This document shows positions 15,018-23,762 of a DNA stretch of 64,000 nucleotides, one piece after another. Position numbers and translations under genes: made by a program. Position 1 is the first letter of the stretch. Each line of letters starts with the position of its first letter. A model generated the notes under the pieces. The model searched no databases. It was not told the origin of the DNA and saw only the letters and a list, made by a program, of their open reading frames with translations. The stretch spans positions 1 through 64,000 of the forward strand of contig CAUJDF010000090.1 in the NCBI GenBank assembly GCA_963169045.1. Reading direction: 5' to 3'. This stretch comes from Myxococcota bacterium. GTDB lineage: Bacteria > Myxococcota_A > Bradymonadia > UBA7976 > UBA1532.

Positions 15018-16301
15018 CTACTCGACGCGCTCGAGGACGAGGGGCAGGGGAGCGGGCGCCTCGTCGCCGATCAGGAAGGCGTCGGAGAGCCGCGCGTGGC
15101 ACGCGTCGAGGCCGACGCCGTCGTGGTGGACGAAGAGGAGGGGCTCGCCGCGCGCGACGCGGTCGCCGACGCGCTTCTCGAGGACGAGGCCGACGCCGGG
15201 CGCGATCGCGTCCTCCTTGCGCGCCCGGCCGGCACCGAGGCACATCGCGCCGACGCCGACGGCGCGCGCATCGATGGCGGTGACGTAGCCGTCGCGCGGC
15301 GCCGCGAACGGCGTGACGTGGGCGGCGCGCGGCAGCCGGTCCGGGTCGTCGACCGTCCGCGGATCGCCGCCCTGCGCCTCGACCACCTGGCGGAAGCGCG
15401 CCAGGCCCCGCCCGTCGTCGAGCGCGCGCCGCGCCTCCGCCGGATCGGCGCCGCCGAGTCGCAGCATCTCCTCGGCGAGGGCCAGCGTCAGCGCCCGGAT
15501 GTCGGCGGGCCCGCCGCCGCGCAGCACCTCGATCGACTCGCGCACCTCCAGCGCGTTGCCCACCGTGCGACCGAGCGGCTGGCTCATGTCGGTGAGCAGC
15601 GCGACGACCTTCTTCCCCATGCCGTTGCCGATGGCGACCATCGTCTCGGCGAGGCGCCGCGCCTCGGGGACCGTGCGCATGAACGCGCCGCTGCCCACCT
15701 TCACGTCGAGCACCAGCGCGTCGATGCCCTCCGCGAGCTTCTTCGACATGATCGAGCTGGCGATCAGCGGGATCGAAGGCACGGTGCCGGTCACGTCGCG
15801 CAGCGCGTACAGGCGGCGGTCGGCCGGCGCGATCTCTTCGGTCTGGCCGATGAGCGAGATGCCGAGCGTCGCCACCATCTCGCGGAATCGCTCGACCGGC
15901 AGGCGCGTGCTGAAGCCGGGGATGCTCTCGAGCTTGTCGAGCGTGCCGCCGGTGTGTCCGAGGCCGCGGCCGCTCACCATCGGCACGCGCACGCCGCAGG
16001 CGGCGACGAGCGGCGCCAACGGCAGGCTGATCTTGTCGCCGACGCCGCCGGTGCTGTGCTTGTCGACCTTGGCGCCGGGGATGTCGGAGAAGTCGAGGAC
16101 CTCCCCCGAGCGCAGCATCGCGTCCGTCCAGGCGGCGAGCTCGTCTGCGTCCATGCCGCGCAGGAAGATGGCCATCAGCAGCGCGGCCATCTGGTAGTCG
16201 GGCACGGCGTCGCGGGTGTAGGCGTCGATCAGCGTCCGGATCTCGTCGCCGGTGAGCTGGCCTCCGTCCCGCTTGCGCTCGATGAGGTCGACGACCCTCA
16301 T
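15018..16301 (-). CDS. deoA: thymidine or pyrimidine-nucleoside phosphorylase
   Basis: A 427-residue cytoplasmic enzyme that phosphorolyses pyrimidine (deoxy)nucleosides to base and (deoxy)ribose 1-phosphate in salvage. The phosphate-binding signature KHSTGGVGDK (81-90), SGRGLGHTGGTLDKLE and SSIMSKKLAEG (about 181-191) are intact, and a C-terminal biotinyl-like domain follows. Length is typical. Sequence alone does not decide between thymidine phosphorylase (deoA) and the broader pdp type. Its ATG overlaps the stop of the FrzS-like gene (ATGA, 4 nt). Confidence 0.93.
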   Translation of the reverse strand: MRVVDLIERKRDGGQLTGDEIRTLIDAYTRDAVPDYQMAALLMAIFLRGMDADELAAWTDAMLRSGEVLDFSDIPGAKVDKHSTGGVGDKISLPLAPLVAACGVRVPMVSGRGLGHTGGTLDKLESIPGFSTRLPVERFREMVATLGISLIGQTEEIAPADRRLYALRDVTGTVPSIPLIASSIMSKKLAEGIDALVLDVKVGSGAFMRTVPEARRLAETMVAIGNGMGKKVVALLTDMSQPLGRTVGNALEVRESIEVLRGGGPADIRALTLALAEEMLRLGGADPAEARRALDDGRGLARFRQVVEAQGGDPRTVDDPDRLPRAAHVTPFAAPRDGYVTAIDARAVGVGAMCLGAGRARKEDAIAPGVGLVLEKRVGDRVARGEPLLFVHHDGVGLDACHARLSDAFLIGDEAPAPLPLVLERVE

Positions 16302-18889
16302 GCGCCGTCGTCCGCCGAGTCCTCGCCCTCGCCGGCGGCGCGCTCGAGGAAGGCCAGCGCCACGCCGAGCGCGGTGCGCGCCTTGTCGACGGCCTGCTGC
16401 GCTCCGTCGTGGCGCGACCGCAGGGCGGCGAGCTCGGCGTCGAGGGCGTCGCGCGCCTGGCCGAGCGCCTCGAGCGACTCGGTGCGCTCGCGGAGCGCGG
16501 TGTCGCGCTCCGCCAGATCCTGCGCCAGCCCCTCGATCGTCCGCTCCATGTCGGCGATGCGCCCGTCGCGCGCGGCCACCTCGCCCTGCAGATCGGCGAT
16601 GGACGCGTCGCGCTCGGCCACCGCGGTGCGCAGGTCGGCGATCGCGGCGTCGCGCTCGGCCACCTGACCCTGCAGATCGGTGATGGACGCGTCGCGCTCG
16701 GCCACCGCGGTGCGCAGTCCGGCGATCGCGGCGTCGCGCTCGGCCACCTGGCCCTGGAGGTCGGCGATCGTCGCGTTGCGGCCCGCGATCTCGGCCTGCA
16801 GGTGGGCGACGTGCTCGTCGCGATCGGCCAGCTCCGACTGCAGCGTCGCGATGCTCGCGTCCCGGGCCGCGACCTGACCCTGCAGGTCGGCGATGTTCTC
16901 GTCACGGGCGGCCACATCGTCGGCGCGGCCCTGGCGCTCGGCCGCCAGCTCGGACCGCAGCGCCGCCTCGGCGTCGGCGGCGCGCTTCGCCTCCTCGTCG
17001 AGCAGCTCCTGCGCGCTCGCCAGCTCGCCGCCCAGGCGCCGCACCTCGGCCTCGGCCGCGTCGGCGCGCCCCGTCTCGCTGCCGAGGCGCTCGTTCAGCG
17101 CCTGCTCGCGGGCCTGGGCCTCGCCGGAGAGCCTGGCGACCTGCTGTTCGTGGGCCTGCTGCTGCGCGGCGGACGCCTCGGCGTGCGCCCGGACGCGCTC
17201 CGCCAGCTCCGCCTCGACCGCGGCCTTGGCGGCCCCGAGCTCGGCGAAGGCGGCGGCGTGGTCGGCGCGCAGGGTCGCCAGCGTGTCGGCGTGGGCCTCG
17301 GCGCGCGCGTCGTCCTCGGCCTCGTGCTTGGCGGCGAGGTCGGCGAGCGCCCGTGCGTGGGCGGCCTCGAGGTCGGCGATCGCCCGGTCGCGCGCCGCCT
17401 CGGCGTCGGCGAGCGCCTGCGCATGCGCGCTCGCGGCGGCCTCGGCGGCGGCGGCGTGGTCGCTGCGGGCCTTCGCGAGCGACTGCTCCCGCTCGGCGAC
17501 CCGCGCCTCGGCCCCGGCCAGCGCGAAGAGGTGCTTCTCCTCGAGCTCGTGGACCGACTGCGCGTGCGCGTCGCGCTCCACCTGGGCGCGGCGGGCGAGC
17601 TCGCGGTTCTCGGTGTGGCTCTTCTCGATCTCCTCGTTGGCCTTGTCGAGCCGCGCCCGCGTCTCGCCGAGCCGCTCCCGCAGGCCGTCGATCTCCTGCT
17701 CCGTCTCCTCGCGCGACTGCTCGAGGGCCTTGATGCGGCCCTCGGCGGCGCGGAGCGCGGCCTCGCCCTGCTCGACCTTTTCGGTCAGGCCGTCGATCTG
17801 CTCGCCGAGGTCGAAGAGCTGGCGATCCTTCGAGGTGAGACGGTCGCGGAGCTCGAGCACCTCGCGGTCGCGGCGGTTGAGCTCGTCGCGGACCTCGATC
17901 AGCTCGCGGCGCGCCGCGCTGTCGGTGCGCTTCTGGTTGGCGCGCTCGGCGTCGCGGCGGGCGAGCTCCTCCTTGGCGAGCTTCAGCTCCTGCTGCAGGC
18001 CGATCACGCGGGCGCGCAGGTCGCGCTGGTCGCGGTCGGACACGTGGAGCGGCGCCTCGGGGGCCGGAGCCGGCGTGGGGACCGGGGCGACGGCGGCCTG
18101 CGCGCGGCGGCCGACGTCGGTCGGGCCGTCCTCCTGCGGCGCCTGCGTGCGCACCTCGACCGAGGCCTCCGCCTCGACGGCGTCCTCGCCATCGAACGCG
18201 AAGGCCACGTCGAACGCCTCGTCCGCCGACGCGGCGGGCGCTTTCGGCTCGGGCGCCCGCTGCTGCAGGAGCGCGAGATCGATGTCGGCGACCATCGTGC
18301 CCTCTTCGTCGTCGCCGATGGCCGTCGTGCCGGGCCGGGACGGCGCCCCGGCGGCCCCCTGGTCCTCGCCGAGGAGCTCCTCGAAGGCGTGGTCGGCCTC
18401 GGCCTCGATCTCGGCGAGCTCGTGGGCGTTGAAGAGGCTGCCGCCGAGGTACGAGTCGTCGTTGCCCTCGGTGTCGCCGATCACTCTGCGCCGCGCGTCG
18501 TCCCCGGCGACGATCGGGTGCCGCACGAGGCCGTTGACGATGTCGATCAGCCGGCCGAGCTCGAACGGCCGCGTCAGGTAGGCGTCGGCGCGCGTGCGCA
18601 GCGCCTGGTGCTTCTCGAGGCGCTCGGCGCCCTGCTCGGCGGCGTCGATGACCATGACCACCGGCACCTCGGGCGCGCGCCGCCGCAGCTTGCTGCAGAG
18701 GCCGTAGCCGGCGCCCTTGGCGTCCATCAGCCCGAGGACCACGACCGTCGGTACGTCGAGACGCGCGAGCTGCACGCCCTCGTTGCCGTCGGCGAAGGTC
18801 TCCACCTCGACGCCGAGCGCGGCGAGGGCTCCCTGGAGCTGCTCGCTGAAGTCGATGTCGTTCTCGATGACGATGATTTTGCTGGGCAT
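16298..18889 (-). CDS. FrzS-like pseudo-receiver with long coiled coil
   Basis: An 863-residue protein: response-regulator receiver fold (1-125), acidic and Pro/Ala-rich linker (about 130-310), then roughly 500 residues of heptad-rich coiled coil. The receiver lacks the phospho-acceptor (Gly53 in VVVLGLMD) and has Arg107 for the conserved Lys (TRPF), so it should not be phosphorylated. Receiver plus coiled coil matches Myxococcus FrzS, a polar gliding-motility protein, so a role in cell polarity or motility is inferred. Near the C-terminus, nine 14-residue repeats (VAERDASIADLQGQ-type) form two heptads each. Its neighbour deoA appears functionally unrelated. Confidence 0.85.
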   Translation of the reverse strand: MPSKIIVIENDIDFSEQLQGALAALGVEVETFADGNEGVQLARLDVPTVVVLGLMDAKGAGYGLCSKLRRRAPEVPVVMVIDAAEQGAERLEKHQALRTRADAYLTRPFELGRLIDIVNGLVRHPIVAGDDARRRVIGDTEGNDDSYLGGSLFNAHELAEIEAEADHAFEELLGEDQGAAGAPSRPGTTAIGDDEEGTMVADIDLALLQQRAPEPKAPAASADEAFDVAFAFDGEDAVEAEASVEVRTQAPQEDGPTDVGRRAQAAVAPVPTPAPAPEAPLHVSDRDQRDLRARVIGLQQELKLAKEELARRDAERANQKRTDSAARRELIEVRDELNRRDREVLELRDRLTSKDRQLFDLGEQIDGLTEKVEQGEAALRAAEGRIKALEQSREETEQEIDGLRERLGETRARLDKANEEIEKSHTENRELARRAQVERDAHAQSVHELEEKHLFALAGAEARVAEREQSLAKARSDHAAAAEAAASAHAQALADAEAARDRAIADLEAAHARALADLAAKHEAEDDARAEAHADTLATLRADHAAAFAELGAAKAAVEAELAERVRAHAEASAAQQQAHEQQVARLSGEAQAREQALNERLGSETGRADAAEAEVRRLGGELASAQELLDEEAKRAADAEAALRSELAAERQGRADDVAARDENIADLQGQVAARDASIATLQSELADRDEHVAHLQAEIAGRNATIADLQGQVAERDAAIAGLRTAVAERDASITDLQGQVAERDAAIADLRTAVAERDASIADLQGEVAARDGRIADMERTIEGLAQDLAERDTALRERTESLEALGQARDALDAELAALRSRHDGAQQAVDKARTALGVALAFLERAAGEGEDSADDGA
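16531..16908. repeat. 42-bp tandem repeats in the coiled-coil gene
   Basis: About nine consecutive 42-bp units encode the 14-residue coil VAxRDxxIxxLQxx. Units alternate in an 84-bp super-repeat (VAERDAAI.. then VAERDASI..), which points to recent duplication of pairs. Every unit keeps the reading frame and the heptad phase, so copy changes would only lengthen or shorten the rod. Confidence 0.8.
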
Positions 18890-19031: not shown

Positions 19032-19631
19032 TTGAACCAGCGACTGCTCGCCCGAAACGTGCCGCCGCCGGGCAGCACGGCCCGCACGGAGCTCCTCGAG
19101 ACCCTCGCCGAGGTCTTTCCGGAGACGATCGACGAGCTCGAGGCGCGCCTCGCCGAGCCGGCGCCGTGGCTCGTCGACGTCGCCACGCCCGAGGAGGCCG
19201 AGCGGGTGAAGGCCTGGGTCGAGGCCGCGTCGCCGGCCCGCCTCACGGTGGTGCTCGCGGTGGGTCCGCGCCCCCCGTCGCGCACGGCGGCGCTGATCGT
19301 GCTCGAGCAGCGCCTCGCCGAGCGGCGGGCGCGCGAAGCGCAGGCGCAGGCCGAGGAGGCGCAGCGGCGCCAGGCCGAGGCGCGCGAGCGGGCCAGGGCG
19401 CTGGCCTCGGAGCGCCGGCCATCGGGCCCCCTCGCCGGCCCGCCGCCCCGCCGGCGCTCGGCGCCGCTCCCGGTCGCGACGCCGGCGCCGGCGGCGATCC
19501 CCGAGGCGTCCGCGACCTCGCCGACGCGGTGGCTGCTCGTCGTGGCGGGGCTCGCCATCGCCGGCGGCGCTCTCGCCCTCGCGCGGTGCGGCGGCGACGC
19601 TCCACCGGCGACGGCGACGGAGGCGCGGTGA
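19032..19631 (+). CDS. tail-anchored membrane protein of unknown function
   Basis: A 199-residue protein: a small N-terminal alpha/beta domain (about 15-80, LLETLAEVFPETIDEL), a charged Ala/Arg/Gln/Glu helix (about 90-130), a Pro-rich linker and one C-terminal membrane helix (about 165-186). This is the layout of a tail-anchored cytoplasmic protein. No family is recognised. The TTG start at 19032 is chosen from GGAG nine nt upstream; no ATG or GTG exists before the domain. It overlaps the next gene by 4 nt (GTGA) and opens a three-gene coupled operon. Confidence 0.65.
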   Translation: MNQRLLARNVPPPGSTARTELLETLAEVFPETIDELEARLAEPAPWLVDVATPEEAERVKAWVEAASPARLTVVLAVGPRPPSRTAALIVLEQRLAERRAREAQAQAEEAQRRQAEARERARALASERRPSGPLAGPPPRRRSAPLPVATPAPAAIPEASATSPTRWLLVVAGLAIAGGALALARCGGDAPPATATEAR

Positions 19632-21052
19632 CGCGCGAGGCCGACCTCGCGCGGGTGATCGCGCTGCTGCGGAATCACGGCAACCACGCGACTTCCTTCC
19701 AGATTCTGGAGCGCGGACTCCAGTGGTGGTTCGACGGCGGCGACGCCGTGGTCGCCTACGTCGAGGCGGCGGGCGCGCGGGTCGTGGCCGGACCGCCGGT
19801 CGCCCCGGCCGCGTCGATGGCCGACGTCGTCCGTCGCTTCGTCGCCGCCTCCGGCGGGAAGCGCGTCGTGTTCTTCGCCGTGGAGGACGACTTCCTCGAG
19901 GCGCTGCGGCGCGGGGGCGTCGCGCACGACGCGGTGACGGTGGGCGTTCAGCCGGAGTGGGCCCCCGGCGCCTGGTCGATCGACGGCAAGGAGCGCCGCT
20001 CGCTGCGTGCCCAGGTGCACCGCGCCCAGAACAAGGGCGTCCGCGTGCGCCGCCTCTCGCCGGCCGAGATCGCGGCCGCGCCGCTGCGCGCCGAGATCGA
20101 CTGGGTGCTCCACCGCTGGCTGGCCTCGCGGCGCATGAGCGTCATGCGGTTCCTCGTCGACCTGCAGCCGTTCACGCTGCCCGCCGAGCGGCGCTACTAC
20201 GTCGCCGAGCGCGGCGATCGCGCCGTCGGCTTCCTCGCGGCGGTGCCGGTCTACGGGCGCCGGGGGTGGTTCTTCGAGGACGTGATCCGAGTCCCCGACG
20301 CGCCCAACGGCACGGCGGAGGCGCTCGTGCACGCGGCGCTCGCCGACGCGCGCGCAGCGGGCGACGCCTACGTGACGCTCGGCATGGCGCCGCTCGCCGG
20401 AATCGCCGGCGGCCCCGGACCGCACCGCCTGCTGCGCACCGTGCTGCGCGCCTGCCACCGTTGGCTCGGCTCGCTCTACGGCTTCGAGGGCGTGCGCGCG
20501 TTCAAGGCGCGCTTCCGGCCGGACCGCTGGACGCCCCAGTACGTGGTCGCGGTGCCGCCGCCCGCGGGCCTGCGGGCGTTCCAGGCGGTGCTCACCGCGT
20601 TCGCCGGTGGCGGGCTGCTGGCGTTCGGCGCGGACACCGTGCGGCGGCTGCTCGAACGCGTGCCCGCCGGCGTCTGGGCCGGCGGCCTTCGCGTGCTGGC
20701 GTGGCTGCTCGTGCCGTGGACGCTCCTGCTCGCGCGCATCGACGGCGCCCGCTGGTTCGGCGACGTCGCGATCCAGCGCGCGTGGGTGGCGTTCGACGCG
20801 ACGCTCGCCGTGGCGTTGTTGCTGCTGGCGCGTCTCGTGGCGCAGCGGCGGCCGGCGGCGAAGGCGCTGGGGATGCTGCTCGCCGGCGCGACCCTCGGCG
20901 ACTTCCTCCTCTCGACCGTCCAGGCGCTCCACCTGCACCGCGCGGTCGCGGGGTGGGCCGCGCTCGGTGTCGCCGTCGGGCTGTGCGGGCCGCTGCTGGC
21001 GTCGCTCTTCCTCGGCGCGATCTCGATCACCCGCGCGGAGGCGCCGCCGTGA
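19628..21052 (+). CDS. MprF-type (DUF2156) aminoacyl-transfer domain with C-terminal membrane region
   Basis: A 474-residue protein. Residues about 1-320 resemble the C-terminal catalytic domain of phosphatidylglycerol lysyltransferase (GNAT-like double fold; note SLRAQVHRAQNKGVRV, SRRMSVMRFLVDLQPF, and ERRYYVAERGDRAVGFLAA). The tail (about 325-470) holds three or four hydrophobic segments. In MprF the membrane part comes before the catalytic domain; here the order is reversed and the flippase-size domain is missing. It may transfer an aminoacyl group from tRNA to a lipid or membrane protein; that is inference. The GTG start overlaps the previous stop and the stop overlaps the next start, both as GTGA. 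Confidence 0.82.
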   Translation: MTREADLARVIALLRNHGNHATSFQILERGLQWWFDGGDAVVAYVEAAGARVVAGPPVAPAASMADVVRRFVAASGGKRVVFFAVEDDFLEALRRGGVAHDAVTVGVQPEWAPGAWSIDGKERRSLRAQVHRAQNKGVRVRRLSPAEIAAAPLRAEIDWVLHRWLASRRMSVMRFLVDLQPFTLPAERRYYVAERGDRAVGFLAAVPVYGRRGWFFEDVIRVPDAPNGTAEALVHAALADARAAGDAYVTLGMAPLAGIAGGPGPHRLLRTVLRACHRWLGSLYGFEGVRAFKARFRPDRWTPQYVVAVPPPAGLRAFQAVLTAFAGGGLLAFGADTVRRLLERVPAGVWAGGLRVLAWLLVPWTLLLARIDGARWFGDVAIQRAWVAFDATLAVALLLLARLVAQRRPAAKALGMLLAGATLGDFLLSTVQALHLHRAVAGWAALGVAVGLCGPLLASLFLGAISITRAEAPP

Positions 21053-22047
21053 GGCTCGCCGACCGCCTCGAGGTCGTGGCCGACGCGCTGGCCGCGGGCG
21101 CCGGTCCTGCCGAGGCGCTGGCGCTCGTGCAGTCGGCGGGACCCGAAGCGGCGCGGTGGGCGGCGAAGATGTCGGGCGTCGTCGGGGCAGGGGTGAGCCT
21201 CGCGTCGGCGCTCGCGCAGGCCGAGAAGCTGCGCCCGACCGAGGTCGCCCTGCTGCGGGCCGCCGAGCGCCACGGGGCGGTCGGCCCGGCGCTTCGCTGG
21301 ATGGCCGGCCGCCGGCGCGCGCGCCGCGCCCGCGTCGCCGGCGTCGCCCAGGGCACGTTCGTGCTGGTGGCGATGCTGGTCCTGACGATCCTCGCCTCGG
21401 CGTTGCCGGCCCTGGTCCTCGGGGGCGCCGTCGGACCGGCGGTGGCGCCGGGCCTCGCCGGGACGGGCGTCGGCCTGGCGGCGGTCTTCGTCGGCGTGCC
21501 GCTGGCGCTGCGCCGGCCGCGGGTGGCGGGCGCGCTGGCGGCGGTGCCCGCCGTCGGTCACCTGGTGCGACTGCAGGCGGAGGCGGAGCTGGCCGCGGCG
21601 ACGGCGGCGATCGTCGAAGCCGGGGGCACGCTGCGGGAGGGGCTGGCCGCGGCCGCGGAGGTCGTCGTCGTGCCGGCGCTCGCCGCCGGCGCCCGCGAGG
21701 GCCTCGGGCTGGTCGCGACGGACGGCGGGTCCCGCGCGCGCCGCCCGCGGCCGGTGAAGGCGGGCGTCGCCTCCGAGGCGCTGCTGCTGGCGCTGGTGGT
21801 CGGCGAGCGCGCCGGCGAGCTCCCCGCGCGCCTGCGGGCCTACGTCGCCGGCGCCGAAGCGCGCGTCACCGCGCGGCTCGTCGTCGCGCTCCGCGCTGTG
21901 CTGCTGGTGCTCATCGTGTGGCTCAGCCTCGAGGGCCTGCTCGGCGCGTCCGGCGGCTCCGCCGGCCTGTTCGATCTCGGCGGCGGCCTGCCCCTCGACC
22001 CCGGCACGCAGCGCGAGCTCGAGCAGCTGATGAAGGAAATCCAGTAG
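21049..22047 (+). CDS. GspF-like (T2SSF-type) membrane protein, orphan
   Basis: A 332-residue integral membrane protein with two weakly similar helical halves, each followed by membrane segments (about 103-142 and 283-303), the pattern of the GspF/PilC platform protein of type II secretion and type IV pili. Motifs such as GAGVSLASALAQAE and EAGGTLREGLAAAAE correspond to the repeated GxxLxxAL element of that family. No other secretion gene is nearby, so it may have been taken over for another role with the two genes it is coupled to. The assignment to the family is moderate. Confidence 0.7.
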   Translation: MRLADRLEVVADALAAGAGPAEALALVQSAGPEAARWAAKMSGVVGAGVSLASALAQAEKLRPTEVALLRAAERHGAVGPALRWMAGRRRARRARVAGVAQGTFVLVAMLVLTILASALPALVLGGAVGPAVAPGLAGTGVGLAAVFVGVPLALRRPRVAGALAAVPAVGHLVRLQAEAELAAATAAIVEAGGTLREGLAAAAEVVVVPALAAGAREGLGLVATDGGSRARRPRPVKAGVASEALLLALVVGERAGELPARLRAYVAGAEARVTARLVVALRAVLLVLIVWLSLEGLLGASGGSAGLFDLGGGLPLDPGTQRELEQLMKEIQ

Positions 22048-23126: not shown

Positions 23127-23762
23127 ATGAAGTGCATCTTCGCCCACGGGTTCGAAGGAGTGCCCTCCGGCCGCAAGCCGCGCTACCTGCGCGAGGCCCT
23201 CGGCCTCGACGTGGTGGCGCCGTCGATGGCCCGACGCGGGTGGACGTTCGAGGACCAGGTCGGCGTGCTCCTCGAGGAGATCGACCGCGTCGAGCCCGGT
23301 GAGGGGCCGCTGCTGATCGTCGGCAGCAGCGTCGGCGCCCTGGCCGCCGCGGTGGCCTCCACGCGCCGCCCCGAGCGCGACCTGCGCCTCGTCCTCCTCG
23401 CGCCCGCCGTCGGCGTCCACGAGATGTGGGAGCGTCAGCTCGGGAGCGAGGGCCTCGCGCTCTGGCGCGAGCTCGGCACGCTCCAGTACCGGCACCTCGG
23501 CGTCGAGCACGACGTGGAGCTGCGCTGGGGCCTCTACGAGCAGTGCCGCGACGCCGCCGGCGTCACGGTCACCCACAAGACGGCGGTGGTGCACGGCAAG
23601 CACGACGACGTCATCCCCGTCGGCCGTGCGCTCGACCTGACGGTCCGCTCGCCCGGTGTCGTCCGGCTTTACGTCGTCGACGACGGACACCGCCTGCTCG
23701 ACTCGCTCGACGTCGTCGCCGACGCCATCGAGCTCGTCAGCGGCCCGCCTTCAGGGCGGTGA
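23127..23762 (+). CDS. YqiA-like alpha/beta-hydrolase esterase
   Basis: A 211-residue cytoplasmic hydrolase of the UPF0227/YqiA type. The nucleophile elbow GSSVG gives Ser68, HGKHDDVIP supplies the acid and DDGHRL the His. It begins like YqiA (FAHGFEG, PSGRK, then an early [12 protein letters not shown]). The natural substrate is unknown. The last 26 nt overlap the end of pntB on the opposite strand. Confidence 0.85.

Follow-up and report, generated by a model that had tools for sequence, protein, structure and literature searches.

Three overlapping membrane-protein genes of a Myxococcota genome raise the question whether they encode one machine or only share one transcription unit. The original prediction had proposed a single three-part membrane assembly at this site. 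From our analysis of the window, that is the whole stretch of 64,000 nucleotides, and of related genomes, we are rather inclined to suggest two independent membrane functions, a lipid-aminoacylating enzyme and a pair of adaptor and platform proteins, which share one transcription unit in the source genome. The features concerned are as follows:

16298..18889, minus strand: divergent response-regulator/coiled-coil gene, the anchor common to the compared loci of genera g3, g4, g6 and g8
19032..19631, plus strand: gene 1, TTG start, 199 aa
19628..19631, plus strand: GTGA stop/start overlap of gene 1 and gene 2
19628..21052, plus strand: gene 2, GTG start, 474 aa
21049..21052, plus strand: GTGA stop/start overlap of gene 2 and gene 3
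21049..22047, plus strand: gene 3, GTG start, 332 aa
22048..23007, minus strand: convergent PAP2-superfamily phosphatase (PF14378, E 8.9e-18)
23127..23762, plus strand: UPF0227 alpha/beta hydrolase, directly 3' of the gene 2 homologue in g4 and g6

The predicted arrangement of three plus-strand genes joined by two GTGA overlaps was found again among the open reading frames, as was the PAP2 gene abutting gene 3 end-to-end on the other strand (boundary 22047/22048). The TTG start of gene 1 is backed by paralogues with the same beginning (MN/MK-x-R). Since the three genes are intact, overlap and keep their frames, their co-expression in the source organism is likely, and with a presumed co-transcription of the three genes a local functional link is conceivable. 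The GTGA overlaps have little weight alone, because exactly-4-base overlaps are common in the window, occurring in 7 of its 29 same-strand neighbour pairs according to our own simple gene caller.

The product of gene 3 had been described as GspF-like and as standing without any other secretion gene, and both parts of this description hold. It belongs to the T2SSF family (E 1.8e-8, 34.8 bits vs a cut-off of 25.2), and neither another secretion gene nor an assembly ATPase or pilins were seen beside it in the window gene list. A profile built from its relatives retrieves PilC and GspF among solved proteins in the PDB, with PilC as the top match. One T2SSF stretch of gene 3 passes the cut-off, two do so in several diverged relatives, and the hydropathy of gene 3 shows segments on both sides of the second half. 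Close relatives were met in g1, g3, g6 and g9 by a family-wide search. After its last helix gene 3 carries a C-terminal tail ending in LMKEIQ, with related endings (LMKELQ, LMRELDLP) in relatives; such a tail is present in six orphan members of the subfamily, those with a visible C terminus, and is absent from the canonical PilC-type copies compared. By its sequence, gene 3 is thus assigned to the T2SSF platform fold as a member of a family-level orphan subfamily. Two genera belonging to another family also have orphan two-domain T2SSF proteins, encoded beside protein kinase-like genes (L045:4396-6376, L046:8392-10664).

The membrane segment that had been predicted near the end of gene 1 is there as a lone hydrophobic stretch at residues 168-186 of 199. 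It is preceded by an N-terminal domain (about 3-77), a long helix (84-127) and a linker, and is followed by a short tail. For the N-terminal domain, a profile comparison and a structure match agree: in hhalign against the C-terminal domain (CTD) of bL12 it gave a collinear alignment with a score of 22.8 (vs a maximum of 15.3 in 60 column shuffles), weak as its probability of 26% is, and the best VIA match of the model, a single-sequence one of low confidence (mean pLDDT 60), was to residues 135-198 of 7o9k chain FF (Z 4.7 over 63 residues). As the match ends at residue 198, the length of bL12m chains, we infer this chain to be bL12m. These weak signals suggest that the domain is probably bL12-CTD-like, with a beta-alpha-alpha-beta-alpha-beta order. 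Gene 1 was missed by the Pfam bL12 model in the search of the source genome, Foldseek with its model returned nothing at E <= 0.001, and its profile had no match among solved sequences. Erythromycin esterase and PEP-CTERM, two other candidate assignments, were rejected, as their Pfam/NCBIfam scores lay far below the cut-offs. Among 379 sampled genomes of the phylum, matches of the gene 1 profile are confined to the source family; the homologues in g3 are longer and have an extra domain beyond the transmembrane helix, and the N-terminal domain recurs in otherwise dissimilar proteins of G005, G008, G009 and G012. Longer proteins of this kind, headed by the same domain, lie at L059:6049-7689, L060:7424-9058, L061:about 1203-2597 and L062:5848-6873. 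Separate from the ribosomal bL12 gene, the source genome (G000) also has two open frames of about 380-390 aa, each consisting for the most part of four tandem bL12-CTD-like repeats (C101:38044-39057, C28:182284-183198; L084-L091).

It could be supposed that genes 1 and 3 are accessories of a type IV filament machine encoded elsewhere in the genome, of PilC/GspF or TadB/TadC type. The platform domain is indeed retained by gene 3, and the source genome has other T2SSF proteins of the canonical kind, namely those with two domains on C39 and C69 and, on C37, a pair of shorter TadB/TadC-like neighbours. However, gene 3 is strongly diverged from the canonical copies and has a tail of its own, and neither an assembly ATPase nor a pilin gene came to notice near the close orphan homologues when their open reading frames were inspected and compared by blastp with the window proteins. 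We regard such an accessory role as a possibility on the unlikely side.

Gene 2 is the sole DUF2156 match found in the source genome, which is one of 10 of the 13 family genomes with one such match each. As predicted, its DUF2156/MprF-like domain stands ahead of a membrane region: residues 13-307 correspond to LPG_synthase_C/DUF2156 (PF09924, E 2.9e-41, 141.9 bits vs a cut-off of 27.5), and four predicted membrane helices follow at 347-370, 380-405, 410-436 and 443-467. The solved proteins nearest to it are LpiA/MprF, A-PGS and L-PGS; chains named cytoplasmic aspartate-tRNA ligase are also among the matches, which we take to be fungal AspRS-DUF2156 fusions. Its AF2 model, built from 16 aligned sequences (pLDDT 91), has the tandem-GNAT fold in prediction, matching 6lv0 with Z 31.2 (VIA; rmsd 2.5 over 308 residues), full MprF 7duw with Z 30.9 (VIA) and MprF soluble domains with Z 28-31. 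Residues R127, R132, K136, E217, D218, R221, Y284, K293 and W301 are invariant in 16 proteins, gene 2 and its homologues. Family and predicted fold therefore make gene 2 most likely an MprF-type tandem-GNAT aminoacyl-lipid synthase, with an enzymatic activity to be presumed from this likeness.

The prediction called this MprF reversed, and the order of synthase before membrane part is real; it is not peculiar to the locus: 15 homologues have it too, and the MAGs that they come from are nearly all of Myxococcota, with one labelled Acidobacteria. None of the 15 aligned homologues lacks the four-helix tail, and its mean identity is only a little below that of the catalytic part (48% vs 54%), so that the synthase-first order is to be seen as a trait of a subfamily. 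Other relatives (G053, G048, Polyangium) stop before or within the four-helix region. A Pfam search found no LPG_synthase_TM flippase domain within the gene 2 protein, and seven matches to this MprF-type domain were found on other contigs of the source genome, so that synthase and flippase would act in trans. Our literature search of open papers found none that deals with DUF2156 proteins in which the synthase comes first and helices form the C-terminal part.

The acceptor of gene 2 might be, instead of a phospholipid, a glycolipid, a peptide or a small molecule. Fem-type and streptothricin peptide synthases have the same fold, an MprF with a glycolipid as its substrate is known (PMC11630815), and residue 304, aligned with the 'PRY' motif Arg of three solved synthases, is Gln in gene 2 and never Arg in the 16 members of the subfamily, a change that is a possible mark of acceptor specificity. 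Against this, the model matches MprF synthases far better (Z 24-31) than it does the Fem or streptothricin enzymes (Z 17-19), and we hold another kind of acceptor to be doubtful.

Whether the three genes stay together was examined in the relatives by a comparison anchored on the divergent response-regulator gene. Genus g1 was represented by a single genome and the family by 13, mostly fragmented MAGs; gene calls were made by our own script, and neighbours were identified mostly by comparison with the window proteins and by eye. The order in g1, as represented by the window, is gene 1, gene 2, gene 3, PAP2, UPF0227, and none of the relatives was seen to have the PAP2 gene at the corresponding site. 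In g3 (G002, G009) homologues of gene 1 and gene 3 overlap each other by 4 bases at the regulator site, without gene 2; in G009 the contig end falls inside the gene 3 homologue. The regulator is followed by a gene 2 homologue and then UPF0227 in g4 (G003, G010) and g6 (G005, G011), while in g8 (G007) one gene of another kind lies between the regulator and PntB. The interval between regulator and pnt genes is accordingly variable, as its gene content differs among g1, g3, g4, g6 and g8. Alike uncharacterised proteins (GLENY..LGKYLG..LYGAVS) adjoin the same regulator in g3 (L042:3197-4216) and g8 (L157:5642-6520). Genus g9 has gene 2 away from the regulator site, downstream of a NADAR-like gene, and UPF0227 at yet another site; the NADAR-like gene (L032:10275-10823, L035:10224-10784) has a 4-base overlap with the gene 2 homologue. 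In G012 a gene 3 homologue occurs without gene 1 or gene 2, and in G011 one overlaps an upstream reading frame that is truncated at the contig end; the 42 residues that can be read of this frame are unlike gene 1.

A lineage-specific three-part complex, in which gene 3 scaffolds gene 2 and the bL12-like domain of gene 1 recruits aminoacyl-tRNA, a translation factor or another partner, could be argued from the two 4-base overlaps on one strand, from all three products being predicted membrane proteins, and from the finding of pair homologues and gene 2 homologues at the same regulator-flanking site in different genera, as an ancestral triplet predicts. In relatives, however, the three genes were not found adjacent, be it in a 58-genome sample, judged by its relatives of gene 2 and of gene 3, or at 20 named gene 2 loci, and among the genomes examined the intact triplet is kept by the source genome only. 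Gene 2 homologues have varying neighbours, with neither gene 1 nor gene 3 adjoining in any locus read, the gene 3 homologue of G012 does without both partners, and the window itself is rich in 4-base overlaps. The proposal of one three-part assembly is thus not supported by the relatives, the trio is probably not a dedicated aminoacylating machine, and a complex limited to this lineage looks improbable to us. That the locus preserves an ancestral triplet lost in sister genera, a complex of bL12-like adaptor and GspF-fold scaffold feeding aminoacyl-tRNA to the lipid synthase, is very hard to credit. These genomes are explained equally well if gene 2 was inserted into the pair and if losses befell an ancestral triplet.

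We return to the reading of two independent functions. The conserved unit is the pair of gene 1 and gene 3, as the pair stands in g3 without gene 2 and gene 2 loci stand without either partner; gene 2 would be a separate unit, with UPF0227 next to it in g4 and g6 and still nearby in the window. Gene 2, anchored at the membrane through its own C-terminal four-helix domain, most likely takes aminoacyl-tRNA and transfers the amino acid at the cytoplasmic face to an inner-leaflet lipid, most likely phosphatidylglycerol; if the product is flipped to the outer leaflet at all, the unlinked MprF-type flippase-domain proteins would do this in trans. Gene 1, in turn, would be a single-pass protein presenting a cytosolic bL12-CTD-like domain atop a helical stalk, and it probably binds gene 3 in the inner membrane to form an adaptor-plus-platform module. 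This pair appears to be undescribed so far. It points to GspF-fold proteins that are used apart from filament genes and have a small adaptor-like partner; should the two work as a platform with neither ATPase nor pilins, the known role of this fold would become wider.

Compared with known systems, gene 1 shares with the C-terminal domain of bL12, a ClpS-like fold, a probable order of strands and helices and a weak collinear profile match, but its version is joined to a stalk and a transmembrane helix, and the Pfam bL12 model did not pick it out in the source genome. With GspF, PilC and TadB/TadC proteins gene 3 shares the Pfam T2SSF family, the hydropathy pattern and PilC as best solved relative; it differs in that no ATPase or pilin genes were seen adjacent, in a second T2SSF half that does not pass the cut-off in the window protein, as it does in several diverged relatives, and in the extra conserved C-terminal tail. 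Gene 2 is similar to the aminoacyl-phosphatidylglycerol synthase-flippase MprF/LpiA in its tandem-GNAT domain, motifs and predicted fold (Z about 31), but lacks the N-terminal flippase, has four helices after and not before the catalytic domain, and leaves the flippase domains to other contigs. Synthase-type domains without a full flippase are also met in MprF1 of Clostridium perfringens, where the flippase domain is absent (PMC11980842), and in mycobacterial LysX2, which combines four membrane segments with an MprF-like domain (PMC8974105). In both of these the helices precede the catalytic domain, unlike gene 2, and the LysX2 domain is extracytoplasmic. MprF1 without its flippase is nevertheless a precedent for a synthase and a flippase acting in trans (PMC11980842), and gene 2 adds to it a synthase-first variant of MprF met among Myxococcota, with one MAG labelled Acidobacteria, whose flippase domains are unlinked in the source genome.
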